Positions 3,473 through 9,372 of a DNA stretch of 24,478 nt are shown here, piece by piece. The position numbers and the translations under genes are program-made. Below the pieces are notes generated by a model. That model saw nothing but the letters and a program-made list of their open reading frames with translations. It was not told where the DNA came from and made no database searches. Within the stretch, counting starts at the first letter, position 1. The number at the start of each line of letters is the position of its first letter. Source of the DNA: a virus; the IMG/VR virus record IMGVR_UViG_3300037516_000316, positions 1-24,478 of that record. One strand, written 5' to 3'.

Positions 3473-3501
3473 AACCTGGATTTTTTAATTCGGGTTTTTT
3501 T
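3473..3501 (+). terminator. Rho-independent terminator after the left structural block
   Basis: AACCTGGA (3473-3480) pairs with TTCGGGTT (3489-3496), using two G-T wobbles; two inner T-A pairs extend the stem to about 10 bp and leave a TTTT loop. A run of seven T (3495-3501) follows. It lies about 50 bases after the stop at 3423 and separates the small virion genes from the gp32-like gene. Confidence 0.8.
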
Positions 3502-3548: not shown

Positions 3549-4388
3549 ATGTCAGCATTAGATGCAATTCTCAACCAGTATGAGAAAAACAAACAACCAG
3601 CGGGAGCAGCCCAAAGAGTTAGTTCAGAAGAGAGATTGAAAAAGTATTTCGCACCCATCTTAACAAAAGGTGTGTCTTCTGGAGAAAAAAGAATCAGAAT
3701 CATCCCAATGAAGGATGGTACATCACCATTTAAAGAGGTATGGTTCCACGAAATCCAAGTGGATGGTAAGTGGGTTAAATTATATGACCCAGGAAAAAAT
3801 GAAGGTAAGCGTTCACCTTTAACCGAGGTAAACGAAGCACTTCGTAGCACAGGTAATGAAGCCGATAGAGAATTGGCTAAAAATTACAATCCTAAACGTT
3901 TTTATATCGTTAAAGTTATCGACAGAGATAATGAGCAAGACGGTGTTAAATTCTGGAGATTTAAGCACAACTCAAAAGGTGATGGTCCTCTAGATAAAAT
4001 TGTGCCAATCATGCGCAATAAGGGCGATATTACAGACCCTAAAAATGGTCGTGACTTAGTTATTTCATTAACATTAACTAAGAAGCCAAGTGGCGGAGAA
4101 TACACAACCATTTCATCAATTTTCCCAGATGATGCTAGTCCAATCAGTACAAACGAAGGACAAGCAACAGAATGGTTAATGGATGATTTAACATGGGCAG
4201 ACGCGTACTCTAAAAAGCCAGAAGAATATCTAGAAGGTGTTGCTAAGGGTTATACCCCAAAATGGAACACTGAAGAGAAGAAATGGGTTTATGGTGACGA
4301 CGGACAAGTTGACTTGGGAGCGACTGAGACACAGAAATTAGTTGATCCACAAGACACTGATGAGGTAGACGAAGATTTACCGTTCTAA
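3549..4388 (+). CDS. 32: gp32-like single-stranded DNA-binding protein
   Basis: This is a T4 gp32-type ssDNA-binding protein that coats ssDNA during replication and recombination. At 279 residues it is close to T4 gp32 (about 301). The OB-fold core begins near residue 47 with KRIRIIPMKDG, matching the gp32 RIRFLPS strand, followed by FKEVWFHEIQVDGKW and later FYIVKVIDRDNEQDG, which match the gp32 order. Two features differ from T4. There is no cysteine in the whole protein, so the gp32 zinc site (His plus three Cys) is missing; the equivalent place reads KNEGKRSPLTEV. The C-terminus is acidic and ends DEVDEDLPF, which looks like the tip of bacterial SSB (DDDIPF). The gene stands alone between two terminators, as suits a protein needed in large amounts. 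Family assignment is confident. Confidence 0.88.
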   Translation: MSALDAILNQYEKNKQPAGAAQRVSSEERLKKYFAPILTKGVSSGEKRIRIIPMKDGTSPFKEVWFHEIQVDGKWVKLYDPGKNEGKRSPLTEVNEALRSTGNEADRELAKNYNPKRFYIVKVIDRDNEQDGVKFWRFKHNSKGDGPLDKIVPIMRNKGDITDPKNGRDLVISLTLTKKPSGGEYTTISSIFPDDASPISTNEGQATEWLMDDLTWADAYSKKPEEYLEGVAKGYTPKWNTEEKKWVYGDDGQVDLGATETQKLVDPQDTDEVDEDLPF

Positions 4389-4398
4389 TTAAGATGTT

Positions 4399-4448
4399 GA
4401 GGGCCCTTGTCAAATTTTAATCTAAGGGAGACAAGGGTCCCTCTTTTT
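4399..4448 (+). terminator. Rho-independent terminator after the gp32-like gene
   Basis: GAGGGCCCTTGTC (4399-4411) pairs with GACAAGGGTCCCTC (4430-4443), 13 bp with one bulged T, followed by five T. The loop is 18 bases (4412-4429), long for a terminator. It begins 10 bases after the gp32-like stop and ends before uvsX, so it would limit read-through from the abundant gp32 message into uvsX. Confidence 0.88.
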
Positions 4449-4461
4449 AAAAAAAAATATT

Positions 4462-5472
4462 ATGGCAATTAAGAAAAACGATTTTTCAGCAATAAAGAAA
4501 AAATTCTCAAAAGAGGCGTCATTTAAGCCAGATAGATTCTTTGATCTTGGTGACGCATTCTCAGACGCAGTAGGTATACCTGGACCAGCTATGGGGCATT
4601 TAAACATGCTTCTAGGGCATTCTGATACTGGTAAGACAACAGCATTGGTAAAAACGGCGGTAGATGCACAAAAGAAAGGTATATTACCAGTGTTTATCAT
4701 TACAGAACAAAAATGGGATTTTCCACACGCAAAACTTATGGGTTTTGAAGTTGAAGAAAGCATTGACAAGGAAACTGGAGATAAGACATTTGATGGATTT
4801 TTCTTATTTAACAATCACTTTGAATACATTGAACAAATTACTGATTATATTGGTGAATTATTAGATGCACAAGATAAAGGTGAATTGGATTACGATTTAT
4901 GTTTCCTTTGGGATTCGGTAGGGTCAGTTCCATGTAAGATGACTTTTGATGGTAAAGGTGGTGCACAACATAACGCCAGAGTATTATCAGATAAAATTGG
5001 TCAAGGAATTAATCAAAGAATTTCAGGTTCAAGAAGAAGTGATAAGAAATTTACAAACACACTAATTATAGTAAACCAACCTTGGGTAGAGTTACCAGAT
5101 AATCCATTTGGTCAACCTAAAATTAAAGCTAAAGGTGGCGAAGCCATCTGGTTAAACTCAACATTAGTTTTCCGTTTTGGTAATGAAAAAAATGCCGGCA
5201 CAACTAAGATTGCTATCACTAAAGATGGTAGAAAAGTTAAAATGGCTGTAAGAACTAAAATCTCAATTATGAAAAACCACGTAAATGGTTTAGGATATGA
5301 GGATGGTAAGATTATTGTTACAGCACATGGTTTTATGCCGGGTAAGTCAGAACCAGAAGAGAAGAAAAGTATTGAAGAATACAAAAAAGATTATGGTAAC
5401 TATATTAGTGAAAGATTAGAAGTTAGTATTGACGAAATTTCTAAACTAAAAGTTGTCACAGAAGAGGAATAG
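4462..5472 (+). CDS. uvsX: UvsX/RecA-like recombinase
   Basis: A RecA-fold ATPase that forms filaments on ssDNA and performs strand exchange; in T4-like phages UvsX drives recombination-dependent replication. The Walker A motif GHSDTGKTT is at residues 52-60, the catalytic-type Glu is in FIITEQKWDF (E82), and the Walker B strand LCFLWDSVGSV ends at D151 and beyond. Downstream are NTLIIVNQPWVELPDNPFG, the region of loop L1/L2 (about 205-225), and KAKGGEAIWLNST, matching the conserved 'GG.A..f.s' stretch of RecA proteins. It is 336 residues, shorter than T4 UvsX (about 390). The C-terminal 40 residues are highly charged (PEEKKSIEEYKKDYG). Its neighbour gp32 is the expected partner. The ATG at 4462 follows a terminator and an A-run and has no Shine-Dalgarno sequence. 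Confidence 0.9.
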   Translation: MAIKKNDFSAIKKKFSKEASFKPDRFFDLGDAFSDAVGIPGPAMGHLNMLLGHSDTGKTTALVKTAVDAQKKGILPVFIITEQKWDFPHAKLMGFEVEESIDKETGDKTFDGFFLFNNHFEYIEQITDYIGELLDAQDKGELDYDLCFLWDSVGSVPCKMTFDGKGGAQHNARVLSDKIGQGINQRISGSRRSDKKFTNTLIIVNQPWVELPDNPFGQPKIKAKGGEAIWLNSTLVFRFGNEKNAGTTKIAITKDGRKVKMAVRTKISIMKNHVNGLGYEDGKIIVTAHGFMPGKSEPEEKKSIEEYKKDYGNYISERLEVSIDEISKLKVVTEEE

Positions 5473-5500: not shown

Positions 5501-6514
5501 ATGTCTGTACTGCTTGTTGATGGTGACAATTTACTTACGATTGGTTTTTTTGGTGTCAAAAATTACTTCTATAAGGGAAAACATATTGGAGGAATTTATC
5601 ATTTTCTCAATACTCTTAGAAAATCATTTGAGACATACCACCTAGACAAGATATGCGTTTTTTGGGATGGTGCCGACAGTGCCGCCACTCGGAAAAAAAT
5701 TTACCACTTATACAAAGACACAAGAAGAAGTAACAGATGGACGGATGAAGCACAAAGTTCATACGGTTATCAAAGAGTTCGAATTAAACAATATCTAGAA
5801 GAGTTATACGTACGCCAAGGCGAATATCAAAATTGCGAATCAGATGATTGTATTGCCTATTATTCACAAAATTCACCCAAAGAGAAAAAAATCATCTATT
5901 CATCAGATAGGGATTTAGCACAATTAGTTTCAGTTGATACTGATTTATATAATCCAGCACATGGCAAAATATATAAACCAGGGGATAATATTGAATACGA
6001 CCATGAAACAATCTTAATTGAAAATGTTAAAATTGTAAAAATGCTGTGCGGAGACCCATCTGATAACATATTTGGTATTAGAAACTTAGGACTGAAAAGG
6101 ATGATTGGGTTATTTCCTGAAATGCAAACAAAAATTTTAACACTTAACGAGGTTAGAACTAAAGCAGAAGAAATATGGCAAGTGGATAAACACAACAAAA
6201 CCTTACAGAATTTACTTACTGGTGTTAGCAAATTAGGGGTACTAGGTGAAGAATTTTTCGAAACAAATGAAAAAATAGTTGATTTAACGGAACCAATATT
6301 AACTGATGATGCGAAAACGCAAATACTTGACTTAATAAATGAAACATTGGATTCCGAAGGGCGATCATATAAAAATACTATGAAAATGATGATGGATGAC
6401 GGGATGTTCACCGTATTACCCAAACAAGAAGACGCCTGGATAAAATTTCTAAACCCCTTTCTGAGGTTAACCAGAAAAGAAAAAAATAAAAAAATAATAA
6501 AATTTAAAATTTAA
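5501..6514 (+). CDS. FEN/PIN-type 5'-3' exonuclease (RNase H-like)
   Basis: A member of the 5' nuclease superfamily (T4 RNase H, T5 exonuclease, Pol I 5'-nuclease domain), which removes RNA primers and 5' flaps. The acidic metal-binding residues are all visible: D7 and D9 in LLVDGDNL, D56 in CVFWDGADS, E113/D115/D116 in NCESDDCIAYY, D136/D138 in YSSDRDLAQL, and D185/D188 in CGDPSDNIFGI. The last motif begins the helix-hairpin-helix region (GIRNLGLKRMIGLF) that binds DNA. It is 337 residues, slightly longer than T4 RNase H (305). I call it a functional equivalent of T4 rnh rather than a proven orthologue. It lies 28 bases after uvsX; the spacer (5487-5500) is AATTTAAATTTTAA directly against the ATG. 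Its stop is four bases from the next gene, so it is co-transcribed. Confidence 0.88.
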   Translation: MSVLLVDGDNLLTIGFFGVKNYFYKGKHIGGIYHFLNTLRKSFETYHLDKICVFWDGADSAATRKKIYHLYKDTRRSNRWTDEAQSSYGYQRVRIKQYLEELYVRQGEYQNCESDDCIAYYSQNSPKEKKIIYSSDRDLAQLVSVDTDLYNPAHGKIYKPGDNIEYDHETILIENVKIVKMLCGDPSDNIFGIRNLGLKRMIGLFPEMQTKILTLNEVRTKAEEIWQVDKHNKTLQNLLTGVSKLGVLGEEFFETNEKIVDLTEPILTDDAKTQILDLINETLDSEGRSYKNTMKMMMDDGMFTVLPKQEDAWIKFLNPFLRLTRKEKNKKIIKFKI

Positions 6515-6997: not shown

Positions 6998-8383
6998 ATG
7001 TCGAAAGAAATGAATTTTGGTTATTTGGGTCCTAGATTCCAACAATCATTATTAAAAACAATTATTGAAGATAAAAAATTCGGTGATTCAATTGTTGAAG
7101 TTATCGAAAGCAACTACTTTGATGGTGTGTATTTTAGAGTGATTATGGAACATATTAAAGAGTTGTATATAACCTTAAATTCAATACCAGCTTATGAAAC
7201 TATTAAAAATAAAATTTTAATTGAAACAAAAGAAGGTTCATCGTCTTCTAAAGTTATTATTGACACATTAAGTGATATTCAAACTATAGAAATTAACGAT
7301 GCATTGCACATTCAAGGCAGTGCCCTTAATTTCTGTAAACAACAAGTGTTAAAGAAAGCATTAAAAGAAGTTGAGGCGATAACTAATGACGGTGAATTTG
7401 AAGCATACAAAAGAATTGAAAATATTATTCAAAAAGCACTACAGGTTGGTGTGATTGATCATGATATGACAGATATTTTTGACGATGTCATGTCGGCATT
7501 ACAAAAAGATTGTAGAACCGCTATACCAACAGGTGTTGTGGGCGTTGATAACTTATTAAAGGGTGGTCTAGGTAGAGGTGAGTTAGGTGTGGTATTAGCA
7601 CCAACAGGTACTGGTAAAACAACGTTACTAACCAAGTTTGCGAACGCAGCGTTTAATAATGATTTTAATGTTGTTCAAATATTTTTTGAGGATAACGTCA
7701 ATAATATTAAAAGAAAGCATTTTACAATTTGGTCTGGGATTGCGCCAGACGACCAAACAGAAGTTCCTGAAGAGGTTGAAAAAAGAGTTAATGAAGCCAA
7801 AGAAAGGTCTAAAGGTCAAATTAGGTTATTAAAATTACCTAGTGATTCTGTAACCGTTAGTGAAATTAAATCTAAATTAAGAAAGATGATTGCCGATGGT
7901 TTTAAAATAGATTTATTAACACTGGACTATGTTGATTGTATTTCACCAGAAAGAAGTGCATTTGGTGAAGAATGGAAAGGTGAAGGTGCTATTATGAGAC
8001 AATTGGAATCGATGACTTCTGAGTTTGATATTGCAATCTGGACTGCAACACAAGGTAATAGAGAATCAATTAAAAGCGAAGTAGTTACAACGGACCAAAT
8101 GGGTGGTTCTATTAAGAAAGCACAAATTGGTCACGTAGTTTTATCTATTGGTAAAACATTACAACAAAAAGAATTAAATTTGGCAACTCTTACATTGTTA
8201 AAATCTAGAGTTGGTAGAGATGGTGTTATATTTGATAACTGCCACTTTAACAATGAGTATTTAACGATTGATACTGATTCACAAAGCACTATGCTTGGTT
8301 TTGAACAAGACAAAGAAGAAAAAAACAAGCAAAGAATTAGAAAACTATTAGACGAGAAAACAAAAACTCGCGTAACTAACTAA
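6998..8383 (+). CDS. 41: Replicative DNA helicase, DnaB/T4 gp41 type
   Basis: A RecA-fold hexameric 5'-3' helicase that unwinds the phage replication fork. At 461 residues it is close to T4 gp41 (475). Residues 1-160 form the helical N-terminal domain. The ATPase core follows: TGVVGVDNLLKGGLGRGEL (178-196) leads into the Walker A motif APTGTGKTT (201-209), the catalytic Glu is in FFEDN (E231), Walker B is LLTLDYVD (306-313), motif H4 is WTATQGNRES (348-357), and the arginine-finger region is LKSRVGRDG (401-409). The C-terminus is charged (DKEEKNKQRIRKLL). A primase gene, its usual partner, is not in this window. The leader 6971-6988 holds ATTTAATTTAATTTAAAA, and the ATG follows a run of nine A with no Shine-Dalgarno sequence. 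Confidence 0.92.
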   Translation: MSKEMNFGYLGPRFQQSLLKTIIEDKKFGDSIVEVIESNYFDGVYFRVIMEHIKELYITLNSIPAYETIKNKILIETKEGSSSSKVIIDTLSDIQTIEINDALHIQGSALNFCKQQVLKKALKEVEAITNDGEFEAYKRIENIIQKALQVGVIDHDMTDIFDDVMSALQKDCRTAIPTGVVGVDNLLKGGLGRGELGVVLAPTGTGKTTLLTKFANAAFNNDFNVVQIFFEDNVNNIKRKHFTIWSGIAPDDQTEVPEEVEKRVNEAKERSKGQIRLLKLPSDSVTVSEIKSKLRKMIADGFKIDLLTLDYVDCISPERSAFGEEWKGEGAIMRQLESMTSEFDIAIWTATQGNRESIKSEVVTTDQMGGSIKKAQIGHVVLSIGKTLQQKELNLATLTLLKSRVGRDGVIFDNCHFNNEYLTIDTDSQSTMLGFEQDKEEKNKQRIRKLLDEKTKTRVTN

Positions 8384-8397
8384 AAAAACAATAAATT

Positions 8398-9372
8398 ATG
8401 GTAGAGAAAATTTTGGTTGAAAACCCAAACCGATTTGTTTTGTTCCCAATAGAACATGAGGATATTTGGAAATTGTACAAACAACAAGAAGCGTGTATTT
8501 GGACAGCAGAAGAGATTGATTTAGGTCAAGATATTACTGACTGGGAGCATAAACTTAATAATGATGAACAACATTTTATTAAGAATGTGTTGGCATTTTT
8601 TGCGGCATCGGATGGTATTGTTAATGAGAATTTAGCAATGAACTTCGTAAATGAGGTTCAATATACTGAAGCAAAATTTTTCTACGGATTTCAAATAATG
8701 ATGGAAAATATCCATAGTGAAACATATTCATTATTGATTGACACATACATTAAAGATAGAGAAGAACAAATGCATCTTTTCCGTGCAGTAGATACAATCC
8801 CAGCAATTAAAAAGAAAGCTGATTGGGCTATTAAATGGATTAATTCTGAATCTTTTGTTGAAAGATTAGTTGCGTTTGCGGCTGTTGAAGGTATCTTTTT
8901 TTCGGGTTCATTTTGTTCTATCTTTTGGTTAAAAAAGAGAGGTCTAATGCCTGGATTAACATTCTCCAATGAATTAATTTCTAGAGACGAAGGTATGCAT
9001 TGTGATTTTGCTTGTCATTTATACAACAGTCATATTGAGAAAAAAATACCTGAAAAGAAACTTAAAGAAATCATTGTTAGCGCATTAGAAATTGAGAAGG
9101 AATTTATATTAGAGGCGTTACCTGTTAGATTAATCGGTATGAACTCAGATTTAATGTCTCAGTATCTTGAATTTGTCACAGACAGGTTATTAGTTGCTTT
9201 AGGTTGTTCTAAAGTATACAACGTAGCGAATCCATTTGACTTCATGGAGAATATCGCTATTCAAGGTAAAACCAATTTCTTTGAAAAAAGAGTTGCTGAG
9301 TACCAAAAAGCAGGAGTACATAATAAAGCTGAAGAAGAACTTGACAGCGCATTTTCTGACATGGATTTTTAA
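8398..9372 (+). CDS. nrdB: Ribonucleotide reductase class Ia small subunit (NrdB, R2)
   Basis: R2 houses the diiron-tyrosyl radical that class Ia reductase uses to make dNTPs. All metal ligands are present at the mouse R2 spacing: D72 in AASDGI, E103 and H106 in MENIHSE, E164 in AAVEGIFF, E198 and H201 in RDEGMH. The radical tyrosine is Y110 (ENIHSETY). W35 ([10 protein letters not shown]) and D197 match the radical-transfer chain, and Y302 (RVAEYQKAG) matches the flexible-tail tyrosine. The protein ends FSDMDF, resembling the mouse R2 tail FTLDADF that docks into R1. Overall it is far closer to eukaryote-like R2 than to T4 or E. coli NrdB, a type also seen in Bacteroidota. It is 324 residues because it lacks the long N-terminal extension of mouse R2 (390). 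It precedes nrdA by 11 bases, reversed from the usual nrdA-nrdB order. Confidence 0.96.

Follow-up and report, generated by a model that had tools for sequence, protein, structure and literature searches.

Why does a single-stranded DNA-binding protein of a phage end like the SSB protein of a bacterium? The question is raised by an open reading frame of 279 amino acids (3549..4388, plus strand) in a viral DNA stretch of 24,478 nucleotides, hereafter the window (IMG/VR record IMGVR_UViG_3300037516_000316). An earlier note, made from the letters alone, had taken its product for a gp32-like ssDNA-binding protein with a tip of the bacterial SSB type. The gp32 assignment holds. The protein matched the Pfam profile PF08804 over residues 44-215 (E=5.8e-13; 49.8 bits compared to a curated cut-off of 26.8) as well as PHROG 1192/224 (ssDNA-binding protein). 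An AlphaFold model, built with 22 relatives, reached a mean pLDDT of 74 and mostly 75-95 in the core. While phmmer of the protein against the PDB gave no match, a fold search with the model succeeded: at E<=0.001 it returned only gp32 cores of RB69 and T4, including the gp32-Dda complex, with E values from 1.6e-9 to 3.7e-9 (T4 1gpc: E=3.7e-9, TM 0.66 by target length; RB69 2a1k was matched as well). The bacterial SSB profile PF00436 gave no match in the protein or elsewhere in the window. By sequence and predicted fold, membership of the gp32 family is near certain.

The folded core comprises approximately residues 44-252 (3678..4304, plus strand; pLDDT mostly >70, PF08804 at 44-215). It is followed by an acidic, predicted disordered C-terminal tail, residues 253-279 (4305..4385, plus strand; pLDDT <50), whose length varies among relatives, with indels in the alignment columns and 40-55 residues from a P-x-W motif to the end. 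Having three to five acidic residues among the last nine in most relatives, it is an acidic disordered tail of the gp32 type. The gp32 proteins of the Straboviridae T4 and RB69 share the fold and the Pfam family and possess such a disordered acidic tail, which in T4 is a protein-protein interaction domain (PMC3016280). However, the window protein differs from T4 gp32 in two aspects. First, it contains no cysteine; hence the T4-type zinc-binding residues are missing and it does not belong to the zinc-finger subtype. Since almost all cyanophage and Immutovirus gp32 proteins lack cysteine too, the zinc-binding cysteines are not a family-wide feature. Second, T4 gp32 ends TDLDDLLNDL, and as stated in the earlier note it carries no Pro-Phe tip.

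The translation of 3549..4388 closes DPQDTDEVDEDLPF, followed by TAA; the same ending can be given as KLVDPQDTDEVDEDLPF-stop. The last nine residues indeed read DEVDEDLPF (residues 271-279; 4359..4385, plus strand), with Phe as the free C-terminus ahead of the stop at 4386-4388. The known features of the bacterial SSB C-terminal tip (SSB-Ct) are present: a free C-terminal Phe, a penultimate Pro, a hydrophobic residue and an acidic run. Random acidic endings in related phages had been named as the outcome that would make the tip a coincidence; in the aligned endings, Pro-Phe is clearly kept. Among the best 80 IMG/VR matches (56-100% identity), 79 end in PF-stop and one in DLPFF. When a divergent relative served as seed for a second query, all 78 complete tails among the matches listed carried PF. 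Both scans covered the best 80 matches each, so that more divergent members and intermediates lie outside the sample. The merged set of at least 109 distinct proteins comprises 63 DLPF, 30 ELPF, 10 DMPF, three EMPF and two NLPF endings, i.e., [DEN][LM]PF-stop in 108 of 109 distinct relatives, and one LPFF, the protein ending DLPFF. The window protein and these 108 relatives, with an acidic run and then a hydrophobic residue, Pro and Phe as final residues, fit a docking tip of the SSB-Ct type.

To judge the constraint on this tip, we considered the 32 proteins that remained after dereplication at 90% core identity, with pairwise core identities as low as 57%. Pro and Phe are present in 32/32 each, the preceding position is Leu in 30 and Met in two, while the linker ahead of the tip varies in sequence and length. 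The tip codons vary synonymously (CCA, CCG or CCT for Pro; TTC or TTT for Phe). Because synonymous codons differ at fixed positions, the amino acids of the tip appear to be under selection, and the alignments indicate that this purifying selection is clade-wide. Among 535 distinct open reading frames (at least 100 amino acids) of the relatives' loci, 53 end in PF, and all of them are gp32, one truncated. Conservation in relatives and the lack of PF endings outside gp32 rule out chance, or a coincidence within an acidic tail. The invariance also bears on a reading in which the tip is mainly an intramolecular acidic flap that rivals ssDNA for the gp32 cleft and modulates cooperativity, without any dedicated pocket on a partner. 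The SSB-Ct does contact its own OB domain (PMC10164576), and the gp32 tail is acidic and predicted to be disordered. However, if only charge mattered, Pro-Phe would not stay invariant across 32 divergent proteins whose acidic positions change, and we regard such a flap as improbable.

The tip is not a general trait of gp32 tails, as sister groups and other phage gp32 proteins end otherwise. At least 81 loci of Immutovirus relatives (one tail lost at a contig end) carry FDDLFN or FDELFN and never PF; some have one extra residue, e.g., FDDLFN(E), and a few an altered last residue. The gp32 tails of the Microcystis phage Mel-JY01 group are mostly FDDLFN-like, those of cyanophages YFQKLAEE-like. 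No PF ending was found in the Immutovirus, cyanophage and Microcystis-phage sets or in gp32 of T4, Pelagibacter, Lysinibacillus and Bacillus phages. FDDLFN (e.g., L081, L482-L561) is a strongly conserved tip of its own that resembles LDDLLNDL of T4, and we found no published description of it. When 52 gp32 cores, freed of their last 30 residues, were used for a maximum-likelihood tree, all sampled proteins with the Pro-Phe tip came to lie beyond one branch (support 100/99). This topology would fit a single gain of the tip, on a long branch (2.8 changes per column) with uncertain deep joins. The closest gp32 proteins of named phages share 27-32% identity among the matches listed. No cultured phage of the tip clade was present in the collections searched, a scan of bacterial genome contigs gave no relatives, and PF08804 was not detected above its cut-off in 396 Bacteroidota genomes.

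Which bacteria do these phages infect? The nearest relatives of NrdA were found in Tenacibaculum and Cellulophaga phages (53%) and that of the RecA/UvsX-like recombinase in Flavobacterium phage immuto (46%). In addition, the relative G002 (272 kb) contains type IX secretion sorting domains, which to our knowledge are confined to Bacteroidota. NrdA, RecA and the sorting domains together point, indirectly but in agreement with each other, to Bacteroidota as hosts of the tip clade. The SSB proteins of this lineage end as the phage protein does: among the matches listed from Flavobacteriaceae genome loci, 79 of 80 SSBs carry DLPF, 75 of these DDLPF (the search seed was partly a flavobacterial SSB; the tails themselves were read in real genome loci), and in a phylum-wide sample of Bacteroidota SSBs 28 of 30 end LPF. 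In both the Bacteroidota SSB-Ct (DDLPF) and the phage tip, a variable disordered linker precedes the acidic run, the hydrophobic residue, Pro and the terminal Phe. However, the phage body has the gp32 fold instead of PF00436, a DPQ motif stands ahead of its tip, and Met is allowed for Leu. The phage-host match is thus imperfect, because Met occurs in phage tips only (13/109 compared to 0/110 host SSB tips). Leu is not unique to Bacteroidota either, as the Bacillus SSB likewise ends LPF. According to published sequences, Flavobacterium and Psychroflexus SSBs end DLPF, those of Gammaproteobacteria DIPF (PMC3991886). The assignment to an SSB-type tip stands; the form DDDIPF given in the earlier note is the Ile variant (E. 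coli DIPF) and the phage tip the Leu variant of the likely hosts.

What might such a tip do on gp32? We consider the chances about even that it lets gp32-coated phage ssDNA recruit host SSB-interacting proteins such as RecO, PriA, RecG and others. The earlier note, whose interpretation is supported in part, had proposed that the tip could either draw such host partners or compete with host SSB for them. The analogy is drawn from the E. coli SSB-Ct, which has many partners: its Phe lies in a hydrophobic pocket, a basic lip holds the carboxyl group and Asp is contacted, while loss of Phe abolishes and a Pro-to-Ser exchange strongly weakens partner binding (PMC10164576). The binding, partners and benefit that we infer for the phage would be as follows: gp32 covers the phage ssDNA, its disordered tail would expose ...DEDLPF-COOH, host SSB-interacting proteins would take the terminal Phe into their SSB-Ct pocket, and phage ssDNA would so acquire host helpers. 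Among the candidate partners RecO would come first, as it might load the recombinase that the phage encodes in the adjacent gene; PriA, RecG and proteins of the RecQ type are candidates too. RecO contacts the nine C-terminal residues of SSB, and a model has been proposed in which it helps RecA loading on SSB-coated DNA (PMC7913777). The RecA/UvsX-like recombinase is the next gene (4462..5472, plus strand; PHROG UvsX-like, E=1.6e-11) and would be a candidate for loading onto gp32-coated ssDNA. RecO was found in 0/9 phage records and in 3/3 Bacteroidota genomes tested, PF00436 as a sign of an own bacterial-type SSB in none of 13 related viral records, and T4-type UvsY was detected neither in tip phages nor in their tip-less sister groups; absences from viral records weigh little, since these are contigs without completeness estimate. 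Loss of UvsY as cause of the tip is unsupported, as the tip-less sisters likewise have no detectable UvsY.

The abundant gp32 might instead serve as a decoy that titrates host SSB partners off host ssDNA, or that hides phage ssDNA from defence systems sensing complexes of phage SSB and ssDNA. Phage SSBs including T4 gp32 are known to trigger defence, whereas E. coli SSB failed to do so when co-expressed with AbpAB (PMC10732053). However, sensing by AbpAB was shown to need ssDNA binding by gp32 (PMC10732053), and a dependence on the tip is unsupported here, so that we think a decoy very unlikely.

The docking of host partners has to be weighed against Immutovirus. Flavobacterium phage immuto shares with the window the order gp32-recA-exonuclease-DnaB-NrdB-NrdA, a Bacteroidota host and the gp32 family. 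However, its gp32 is only 27% identical over 60% of the protein and ends FDDLFN(E)/FDELFN, and its polymerase is of the A-family, not the B-family. This counts against host docking: since Immutovirus infects Flavobacterium without the tip, the tip is optional and not required for such hosts. Tip-less Immutovirus, together with the nearly invariant DPQ motif that may point to a phage partner, tempers the host reading.

Besides the recombinase, the replication cluster next to gp32 comprises a 5'-3' exonuclease (5501..6514, plus strand; PF02739, E=1.1e-25) and a DnaB-type replicative helicase (6998..8383, plus strand; PHROG 19, E=2e-52), and ribonucleotide reductase genes are also located downstream of gp32. 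Directly 3' of the gp32 stop, a hairpin with a T-run resembles an intrinsic terminator (4399..4443, plus strand; 13-pair stem, -23.5 kcal/mol, then TTTTT). Hairpin-like sequences past the gp32 stop occur also in L007, L012, L018, L021 and L023, and upstream of gp32 there is another terminator-like site of lesser strength (3473-3496). Thus gp32 might be transcribed on its own, inside an otherwise tightly packed cluster. The polymerase is of the B-family in the tip phages and in the FDDLFN-bearing Mel-JY01 group, and of the A-family in Immutovirus. This rules out that the tip is due to a missing polymerase and use of the host replisome, as tip phages encode their own, and likewise that it is tied to the B-family enzyme, which the Microcystis-phage group has too. 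As a side aspect, the divergent B-family polymerase (G001-G004, G006, G411-G413) and the A-family polymerase (G012, G013, G414) represent a swap between otherwise syntenic replication clusters.

The DPQ motif (residues 266-268; 4344..4352, plus strand) is conserved to 31/32 for D, 27/32 for P and 31/32 for Q among the dereplicated relatives, and by pattern it occurs in 95 of 109 distinct relatives. It is phage-specific, not evident in the Flavobacteriaceae SSB tails examined, and, standing outside the known bacterial SSB tip, may mark a second phage-specific contact. The motif favors the main rival explanation: the tip might dock a phage-encoded partner (the RecA/UvsX-like recombinase, the helicase, a DnaG-type primase or the B-family polymerase), and its likeness to SSB would be convergence on a useful amphipathic acidic tip. 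There are precedents, as the SSB of phage HK620 (NDYPPF) brings its own recombinase Sak4 via the last six residues (PMC5928155), and the acidic C-terminal domain of T4 gp32 serves UvsX, UvsY, gp59 and Dda (PMC3016280). Furthermore, the sister gp32 groups keep other tips (FDDLFN, YFQKLAEE), as expected if the tip co-evolves with the phage's own replisome. However, a phage partner alone leaves the choice of a Bacteroidota-type SSB tip unexplained, and across the tip clade, the Mel-JY01 group and Immutovirus the kind of tip is not linked to the type of polymerase. We therefore see this alternative as possible, yet rather doubtful.

If host docking is right, the tip would have come to copy the bacterial SSB-Ct by convergence, on a gp32 fold and in a clade of Bacteroidota myoviruses. 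A more far-reaching version, which we hold tentatively and at somewhat less than an even chance, is that this whole uncultured clade swapped a T4-type recruitment tail for a copy of the host SSB-Ct, and that its gp32, structurally unrelated to host SSB, serves on phage DNA as hub of the host SSB interactome, replacing host SSB during infection. Host-type tips on phage SSBs as such are not new: besides HK620 (NDYPPF; PMC5928155), the SSB of Croceibacter phage P2559S carries one (DDDLPF). Both, however, are SSBs of the bacterial-type fold with the tip in its usual setting, while here the architecture is unrelated. In T7 gp2.5, likewise a phage SSB, interactions are made through the C-terminal tail and its last Phe; this protein is of another family, interacts with the phage replisome, and is not known to carry the L-P-F form. 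Its C-terminal phenylalanine is mentioned elsewhere (PMC9917605). In the open-access literature, we found no report of an SSB-Ct tip on a gp32 fold. What is new is the fold on which a known motif sits, fixed in a large uncultured clade.

Should the tip work, nine residues would suffice to link an unrelated phage protein to the DNA-maintenance network of the host. Nature would thereby have tested if the interactome is determined by the SSB-Ct alone, and a recombinase-loading mechanism would be available for T4-like phages without detectable UvsY. The sister gp32 clades, with swappable FDDLFN, LDDLLNDL and [DE]LPF tails, allow a clean comparison.

Further observations concern other genes of these phages. 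The NrdB protein of the window (8398-9372) ends DSAFSDMDF, acidic with a terminal Phe; presumably this is the ordinary C-terminal peptide that docks NrdA and not an SSB-type tip. In the relative G002, two more genes code for a Y-family polymerase similar to UmuC and a GIY-YIG nuclease similar to UvrC (L461:12800-14029, L461:14805-16109). Finally, Por_Secre_tail, CHU_C and SprB repeats are found in phage genes of G002 (L449:13700-17734, L460:4472-6916) and also of G013, which suggests that such sorting-domain phage proteins might be exported via the host's Bacteroidota-specific secretion system.
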